A stretch of DNA of 64,000 bases from a bacterium (lineage in GTDB: Bacteria > Bdellovibrionota > UBA1018): assembly GCA_019751945.1 (NCBI GenBank), contig JAIEMT010000023.1:1-64000 (forward strand), in the 5' to 3' direction. Below are positions 143 through 55,358 of the stretch, in pieces (position 1 is the first letter of the stretch; each line of letters opens with the position of its first letter). The notes below the pieces were generated by a model. It did no database searches. It was not told where the DNA came from and worked only from the letters and a program-made list of their open reading frames with translations. Made by a program: the position numbers and the translations under genes.

Positions 143-820
143 ATGGCAGCAGTCTTAAACCTTTTGGATCGTCCACTCCATTTGAACTTTGCACTTGCAC
201 ACAGAAAGGGTCCATATATGGGCGTCAGGCAGAAAGGAAAAAAACGCACCAACTCTCACAAAAACCCATTGCCCCAAGATAATTTCATGCTAGAAGCACA
301 CATGCGAAAAGCAAAACAACTCAGCTTCCTACCCCCCACCCAGAAAGAACACGGCGGCAGCTTTCGAAAAGGACGGCGTAAGACCCAGCGCCCCTTCGAC
401 CCGAAGCGCGCACTCCACCTCACACTCCGAACACGCACCAACCAATCCATGATTCGAAAGAAGTGGCCAATCTGGGAGGGGCTGCAAAAAACCTCAGAGA
501 AGCATCGCGTACGAGTCTATCGCTTTGCGAACGTAGGAAATCACCTCCACCTCCTGATCCAAGTTCGAACCAGAAGAGAATTGAAGGCATTTCTCAGAGA
601 ATTCGCAGGACGTGTGGCCGTGCTGATGACCGGCTCGATCAAAGGACGCCCGGAGAAATTTTGGGATGGATTGGCTTGGTCAAAGATTGTCGAGTGGGGA
701 CGGCAGTTTCAGAATGCTGCTCGGTATGTTCTTCTCAATGTCCTTGAAGCAAGCGGCGCCAGAAACAGAAAACTCCTAGCTCAGCTCGAGACTGAAGGAA
801 TCGCCTGGGTCAGGGAGTGA
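143..820 (+). CDS. Y1/IS200-like transposase, RAYT-type (REP-associated tyrosine transposase)
   Basis: HUH-like motif 'NHLHLLIQV', later 'QNAARYVLLNVLEASG' tyrosine helix, Lys/Arg-rich N-terminus 'RRKTQRPFDPKRALHLTLRT'; no flanking terminal inverted repeats seen. Confidence 0.75.
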   Translation: MAAVLNLLDRPLHLNFALAHRKGPYMGVRQKGKKRTNSHKNPLPQDNFMLEAHMRKAKQLSFLPPTQKEHGGSFRKGRRKTQRPFDPKRALHLTLRTRTNQSMIRKKWPIWEGLQKTSEKHRVRVYRFANVGNHLHLLIQVRTRRELKAFLREFAGRVAVLMTGSIKGRPEKFWDGLAWSKIVEWGRQFQNAARYVLLNVLEASGARNRKLLAQLETEGIAWVRE

Positions 821-9342: not shown

Positions 9343-9367
9343 TTCAAAGGTGGTCACCACCTTTTGG
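9343..9367 (+). repeat. REP-like palindrome, copy 1 (TTCAAAGGTGGTCACCACCTTTTGG + TAG)
   Basis: Perfect 19-nt core AAAGGTGGT-C-ACCACCTTT; same family as copies at 54671 and 54741. Confidence 0.85.
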
Positions 9368-9395
9368 TAGCTCGGGTGCGTTATAGGCGAGGGGT

Positions 9396-20560: not shown

Positions 20561-20686
20561 CTGTTTGCTGTTTGCAGTCTGCAGAAGCGGGCATCGGTTT
20601 GCTGAAGCAGGGACTGTTGGCAACAGCTCACTGAAACAGCTTCAGCAGACAGCTGCCTGCTTCCGCAGACTGCAAACAGCAAACAG
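20561..20686. repeat. ~126-nt giant imperfect palindrome/hairpin element
   Basis: 33-nt arms 20561-20593 and 20654-20686 match 31/33 as inverted repeats; second inner stem (TGCTGAAGC) and a CTGTT-GGC-AACAG tip. Confidence 0.9.
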
Positions 20687-54525: not shown

Positions 54526-54567
54526 GGGAAACTGGGCAAGTCGAGGTTGTAAGGAGAGGTTAGTGGA

Positions 54568-54669
54568 ATGAGAAAAGTTCAACTCAATGCGGATTTCTGG
54601 ATTCCAGCGACGCTGATCGGCCTCACGCTCGTCCTACTCTTGCTCATCAATCTGGTGCGGGGCCTCTAA
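54568..54669 (+). CDS. 33-aa single-TM micro-protein MRKVQLNADFWIPATLIGLTLVLLLLINLVRGL
   Basis: RBS AAGGAGAGG 8 nt upstream of the ATG; hydrophobic helix; below the ORF-track length limit. Confidence 0.6.
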   Translation: MRKVQLNADFWIPATLIGLTLVLLLLINLVRGL

Positions 54670-54670
54670 G

Positions 54671-54765
54671 CCAAAAGGTGGTCACCACCTTTTGGTAGGC
54701 CTAAAGCCATTGATTTAATTGATTTTTCTGCAGACACCTACCAAAAGGTGGTGACCACCTTTTGG
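54671..54765. repeat. BIME-like pair of REP-like palindromes (copies 2 and 3)
   Basis: Perfect 29-nt inverted repeats 54671-54699 / 54737-54765 (CCAAAAGGTGGTCACCACCTTTTGGTAGG), each containing a 25-nt palindrome; 37-nt spacer. Confidence 0.93.
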
Positions 54766-54839
54766 CGCCCGAAGTACCTGAGATCATAGGTGAATAGGTA
54801 TTGACTTAGATGACTGGGACCTGCTACTTCAGTCCCCCT

Positions 54840-55358
54840 ATGTTGCATCAGAAAACGTACCAGGCAAAGCAGTCCAACCCTCATTTTTTCGAGACCAAAG
54901 GTCCTAACGCACCCAAGTGGTACGTCGTAGACGCCTCTGATCAGGTCGTCGGTCGTTTAGCGACTGTTCTGGCCCGAGTGATTATCGGAAAACATAAACC
55001 TACTTTTACAAAGCATGCTGACACGGGCGACTTCGTTGTCGTTCTCAACGCAGACAAAGTGGCCTTCACCCGCAATAAGTGGGACGGCAAACTTTATCGC
55101 GATCACAGCGGTTACGTCAGCGGCTTGAAAACCAAAACTGCGAAAGAAATGCTCAACCGTCATCCGGAAGAAATTCTTCGCCGCGCTGTTTGGGGCATGA
55201 TCAACAAGTCGAGCCTCGGCCGCCATCAAATGAAAAAATTGAAACTGTACGCAGGCGCTGAGCATCCTCACAAGGCTCAGAATCCGCAACCCCTTCCTGC
55301 TGTCGTGACCCGAAGAACCGTGGTCAGCCCGACTGCAAAAAAGAAAATGAATAAGTAA
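54840..55358 (+). CDS. rplM: 50S ribosomal protein L13
   Basis: 'WYVVDASDQVVGRLATVLARVIIGKHKPTFTKHADTGDFVVVLNADKVAFT', 'RAVWGMI', 'KLKLYAGAEHPHKAQNPQPL'. Confidence 0.96.
   Translation: MLHQKTYQAKQSNPHFFETKGPNAPKWYVVDASDQVVGRLATVLARVIIGKHKPTFTKHADTGDFVVVLNADKVAFTRNKWDGKLYRDHSGYVSGLKTKTAKEMLNRHPEEILRRAVWGMINKSSLGRHQMKKLKLYAGAEHPHKAQNPQPLPAVVTRRTVVSPTAKKKMNK

Follow-up and report, generated by a model that had tools for sequence, protein, structure and literature searches.

An inverted palindrome pair upstream of rplM as a probable doublet of a low-copy, RAYT-associated repeat family

The inverted pair of palindromes upstream of rplM in the 64,000-nt stretch of DNA analysed here (the window) most probably represents a mobile repeat of REP type, whose recognition tag is unusual, and not a regulator of rplM. 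With a probability of roughly 0.87, we read it as one doublet from a low-copy family of REP-type repeats that belongs to a RAYT, a REP-associated tyrosine transposase of the Y1/HUH type, which is encoded elsewhere in the genome and flanked by inverted copies of the repeat. This reading follows from the dispersed copies, the inverted flanks of the RAYT gene, the architecture shared by the repeats and the co-occurrence of tagged repeats with RAYT. The low copy number (14) and the lack of a clear tag on the rplM units count against it.

The inverted pair and its position at rplM

The 29-nt units lie 37 nt apart and form an exact reverse-complementary pair (Table 1), as stated in the preliminary description, and a repeat search extended the perfect arms outward by one base to 30 nt (54670–54699 and 54737–54766). 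Each unit does contain a perfect 25-nt palindrome with 11-bp arms around a 3-nt centre. When region 54560–54840 was compared with the genome from which the window comes, matches elsewhere were confined to the palindromes. The TAGG foot had been taken as the asymmetry that orients each unit; the asymmetry conserved in the family is instead a TRACGCA tag situated further out, which the rplM units have lost. Aligned copies show that both rplM units possess the hairpin part and lack a clear tag, and a relic, TTCTGCA, is found immediately left of the right unit, where family members carry TRACGCA. In both units the tag side is turned inward, which is also the arrangement of the pair at the RAYT gene.

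Table 1. Features in the window and, where a contig or locus handle is given, elsewhere.
Feature	Position	Strand	Remark
Y1_Tnp gene of second type	143..820		QLSFLP... type, one of six; without inverted flanks
Third copy, complete singlet	9349..9383	-	minus-strand reading TAACGCA-CCCGAGCT-ACCAAAAGGTGGTGACCACC
Inverted repeat, 48 nt	20561..20686		arms 90% complementary, 30 nt apart
Micro-ORF, putative membrane, 33 aa	54568..54669	+	stop 1 nt before left unit
Left REP unit	54671..54699	-	palindrome 54671-54695 (AAAAGGTGGTCACCACCTTTT, CC/GG ends) + TAGG; tag side faces right (inward)
Inter-unit spacer	54700..54736	.	
Right REP unit	54737..54765	+	palindrome 54741-54765; exact reverse complement of left unit; tag side faces left (inward)
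TTGACT, -35-like element of rplM	54801..54806	+	position conserved in relatives
rplM (ribosomal protein L13)	54840..55358	+	
RAYT gene (own genome, G000)	C22:25038-25700		between two inverted repeat copies
Copy in mutS (G000)	C27:27695-27728 (L037:2196-2229)		in frame; core GGTGGGGACCACC
Copy in another gene (G018)	L167:1967-2001		in frame (NDAAAEPKGGPDL)

The location upstream of rplM was described correctly, the pair standing directly behind the stop of the micro-ORF, with TTGACT beginning about 35 nt downstream of its end. Since TTGACT occupies the conserved position of the rplM promoter and the pair lies upstream of it, the pair is expected to fall outside the rplM transcript. In relatives, TTGACT is followed by TGTAATTC, very near the ATG in many genera (54801–54840 in the window), and the rplM mRNA may be almost leaderless.

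No palindrome was found upstream of rplM in any of the 27 relatives with a readable rplM, among which the upstream sequence differs, nor was the micro-ORF found at that place in relatives. A terminator scan at the pair gave no match to the consensus, the T run being only 4 nt long, while Rfam yielded only sub-threshold microRNA models at this site, which are expected of any long hairpin. Since neither conservation nor a terminator consensus is seen at rplM, a function there, whether in termination, stabilisation or factor binding as had been proposed, is not supported, and a regulatory element of rplM was rejected because of the missing conservation in relatives. The simplest reading is a lineage-specific insertion with little or no effect at rplM. 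Predicted folding energies amount to -17 to -28 kcal/mol for single units and about -61 kcal/mol for the rplM pair, and a very stable hairpin of the pair could form in read-through RNA.

A role of the palindromes as target sites for a double-stranded DNA regulator, be it of rplM or of a regulon, is very improbable. Their perfect symmetry, the nearby promoter and the several dispersed copies are in line with such a role; however, the palindrome is absent upstream of rplM in the 27 relatives, the copies sit mainly at gene 3' ends with one inside mutS, and the family tracks RAYT.

A dispersed repeat family and its RAYT gene

Within the window, a 19-mer of the unit matched five times with at most 3 mismatches, compared with 0.02 matches expected in shuffled sequence. 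Across the own genome (G000; 3.23 Mb in 71 contigs), the 13-mer core GGTGGTCACCACC occurs in 12 copies, whereas the reversed control gave 1; with the two close variants at C27:27695 and C1:129014, the total is 14. Thirteen of these lie outside genes, the remaining copy being in frame inside mutS; the third copy in the window, for example, is placed between the start of an mraY-like gene (9303) and the end of the next gene (9446). Copies thus exist beyond the rplM pair and are not spread equally over coding sequence, which upholds the initial REP-like assignment, as does the presence of the family on both sides of a RAYT gene. Such mostly extragenic placement is a feature of REPtrons, although it is less certain in the relatives than in the own genome.

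Alignment of the copies showed that the unit exceeds the palindrome in length. Read from the tag, it consists of W-TRACGCR, a linker of 7-8 nt, ACCAAAAGGT, seven core bases and ACC, usually followed by TTTT. The RAYT gene sits between two inverted copies of this repeat, and its stop codon, TGA, is supplied by the tag of the downstream copy. Together with the dispersal of the family, these inverted flanks correspond to the organisation of a REPtron.

The product of this gene, P0001, combines the Y1_Tnp family assignment, the HUH motif and the Y---NP motif by which a RAYT / TnpA-REP protein is recognised. It scored 26.7 bits against PF01797, above the cut-off, and its sole PDB match is TnpA-REP (4er8, E 4e-8). 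The HUH residues H61/H63 as well as Y120, N124 and P125 of Y---NP are invariant in 22 sequences. Against the REP_Tyr_transpos profile NF047646, it reached 67.1 bits (E 1.5e-18), below the 80-bit cut-off, and we count this result against our preferred reading. A Pfam search of P0001 found no C-terminal helix-turn-helix domain, a feature of TnpA-Y1 subclass 2.1. The own genome contains seven Y1_Tnp genes, and the six others are of another type, for which a search for cognate repeats gave no inverted flanks above 21 points. One of these lies in the window (Table 1); four of the other five QLSFLP-type genes (L030, L031, L033 and L034) have upstream leaders that resemble one another and may contain paired stretches, and the leaders of the QLSFLP-type genes gave no match in Rfam.

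Matches to P0001 were found at E <= 0.001 in 23 of 58 genomes, the own genome included, and 21 of them are strong. At 17 of the 22 readable RAYT loci (again with G000), inverted flanking repeats scored above the shuffled maximum. Most of these repeats are of one architecture, from the TRACGCR tag through the 7-8 nt linker, ACCAAAAGGT and a 7-nt core to ACC, the core being specific to the genome; diverged cores are GGTAGGCCGTACC in G021, GGTCGGGCCCACC in G018 and GGTCGGCCCGACC in G030. A search of the 58 genomes with a pattern of tag and hairpin, ACGCA-N5-9-ACCAAAAGGT-N7-ACC, found copies in nine genomes and none with the reversed control. All nine encode RAYT, compared with 21 of the 58 overall (Fisher p = 2.8e-5, not corrected for kinship). 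Two stem pairs, 8-14 and 9-13 by alignment column, are variable and show changes on either side, while G018-type cores break one pair, so that covariation lends the predicted stem modest support. G018 also holds a tight inverted doublet (L170:1924-1995), in which two units stand tag to tag with a gap of 3 nt.

The preliminary description had called the pairing BIME-like. Two inverted doublets exist in the own genome, at rplM and around the RAYT gene, but all other copies are singlets, so that this part of the proposal gains only weak support, and inverted doublets are not the main form there, as they would be in REPINs. A classical REPIN, in which the doublet replicates as a unit and singlets are decayed doublets, would be a finer version of our preferred reading and compatible with it; we consider it doubtful. 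The inward, tag-to-tag pair forms a 30-bp hairpin and is oriented as around RAYT genes, and three of the four close pairs in G018 are also inward. However, singlets dominate, and the near-identity of their cores within a genome is not what decayed remnants should show. Given the predominance of singlets, the doublet may not be the moving unit.

For the TnpA-REP proteins of E. coli, Stenotrophomonas and Marinomonas, binding of hairpins in single-stranded DNA, tag-dependent cleavage and strand transfer have been described (PMC8266576). By analogy with the E. coli protein, the RAYT would bind the repeat hairpin in single-stranded DNA, with the TRACGCR tag serving in recognition or cleavage; strand transfer by the enzyme would disperse the repeat. 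The rplM pair would then be a degenerate, tag-less product of one dispersal event, probably neutral and at most forming a hairpin in read-through RNA.

Core, linker and gene context

The search pattern fixes ACGC[AG], ACCAAAAGGT and ACC, so that comparison is confined to the free parts: the core, the linker and the two leading bases of the tag. The flanks of the copies differ at 0.72-0.75 of positions, as expected of unrelated sequence, compared with 0.06 for the free 7-nt core. Comparisons within genomes show a difference in a fraction of 0.50 at linker positions 8-10 and of 0.06 at the free core positions; G017 is an exception in that its core varies too. Drift in dead copies should affect core and linker alike; either recognition or selection holds the core, or movement of a copy alters its linker. 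An origin of the linker from the target site was rejected, as 720 tests revealed no association beyond 2.5 SD between a linker base and a flanking position. A bolder version, which we consider rather unlikely, is a REP class with a detached TRACGCR tag in a RAYT lineage reported to be REP-less, whose single units move and whose linker is rewritten at each move and so forms a record of insertion.

On the tag side, the neighbouring gene is directed towards the repeat in 53 of 77 scorable contexts; on the opposite side, this holds for 49 of 78. Many copies have converging stop codons within 0-12 nt, and the TRA of the tag itself serves as a stop codon in 9 of 80 copies. By ORF calls that are rough in the relatives, 25 of the 80 copies from the own genome and relatives lie more than half inside ORFs; after a codon-usage check of these ORF-internal copies, three were left with coding-like scores on both sides. 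The copy in mutS encodes HDAPLNQKVGTTF, and the MutS loop that holds this stretch varies in length among relatives. Another in-frame copy lies in a G018 gene (Table 1), which we take to encode an Xer-like tyrosine recombinase.

This gene context also bears on the alternative that the repeats are bidirectional intrinsic terminators (AAAA-stem-loop-UUUU) selected at gene ends, with the RAYT link being secondary. The terminator-like shape of AAAAGGTnnnnnnnACCTTTT, the converging stop codons close to many copies and the predicted folding energies all fit this alternative. We nevertheless judge it improbable, as the scan was empty at the rplM pair with its short T run, and as terminators leave the TRACGCR tag, the near-identity of cores within a genome and the inverted flanks of the RAYT gene unexplained.

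Relation to known repeat systems

Like the GTAG REPs, REPtrons and REPINs of E. coli and Pseudomonas, the repeats are short extragenic palindromes of which inverted copies flank RAYT. They share with GTAG REPs the crowding at gene 3' ends, the stop codons supplied by the tag and the occasional in-frame copies in DNA repair genes; 3'-end placement, tag-derived stop codons and copies within repair genes have been reported for both GTAG and CGTC REPs (Di Nocera 2013, PMC3733652). In contrast to GTAG REPs, the tag is set off from the stem by the 7-8 nt linker plus ACC, and copies are few and mainly singlets. Assignment to the GTAG class was rejected, since no conserved GT[AG]G stands directly at the 5' foot and GTAG occurs only 3' of the hairpin, where it is unconserved (GGTTG, GGTTA and GGTTT in relatives).

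The other strand of the tag, TGCGTYA, contains CGTC in its TGCGTCA form and thereby resembles the CGTC-tagged REPs (Di Nocera 2013). Here, however, a linker separates the tag from the hairpin and the stem is GGT/ACC rather than AT-first. This class was also rejected, as the CGTC at the end of the hairpin, the AT-first stem of 8-9 bp and the CCA tail given in the text of PMC3733652 were not found. Moreover, CGTC repeats were not found to flank any transposase gene in that study (Di Nocera 2013, PMC3733652), whereas the repeats described here flank the RAYT.

Among named groups, the TIRYT/TIRtron set (Di Nocera 2013, PMC3733652) comes closest; the present system shares with it a RAYT-like gene with non-GTAG inverted flanking repeats and repeat families that are dispersed, moderately abundant and in part self-complementary. 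The GGGGWSAS motif, found in many though not all members of that set, is absent from the inverted repeats here. P0001 possibly belongs to TnpA-Y1 subclass 2.1, with which its length and its NHFH and Y---NP motifs are compatible; no REP-like sequences have been reported for genes of this subclass (Quentin 2018, PMC6006769). What sets the present repeats apart from both the TIRYT/TIRtron set and subclass 2.1 is an architecture of TRACGCR tag and hairpin that is common across genera.

The REP and RAYT literature searched makes no mention of Bdellovibrio, and no description of such a system was found for this lineage. With this family, REPs gain a further class that has a tag and a transposase of its own. 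The several genera with diverged cores form a natural set for testing how RAYT recognises its repeats, and the near-invariant core next to a variable linker could separate drift from change during transposition.
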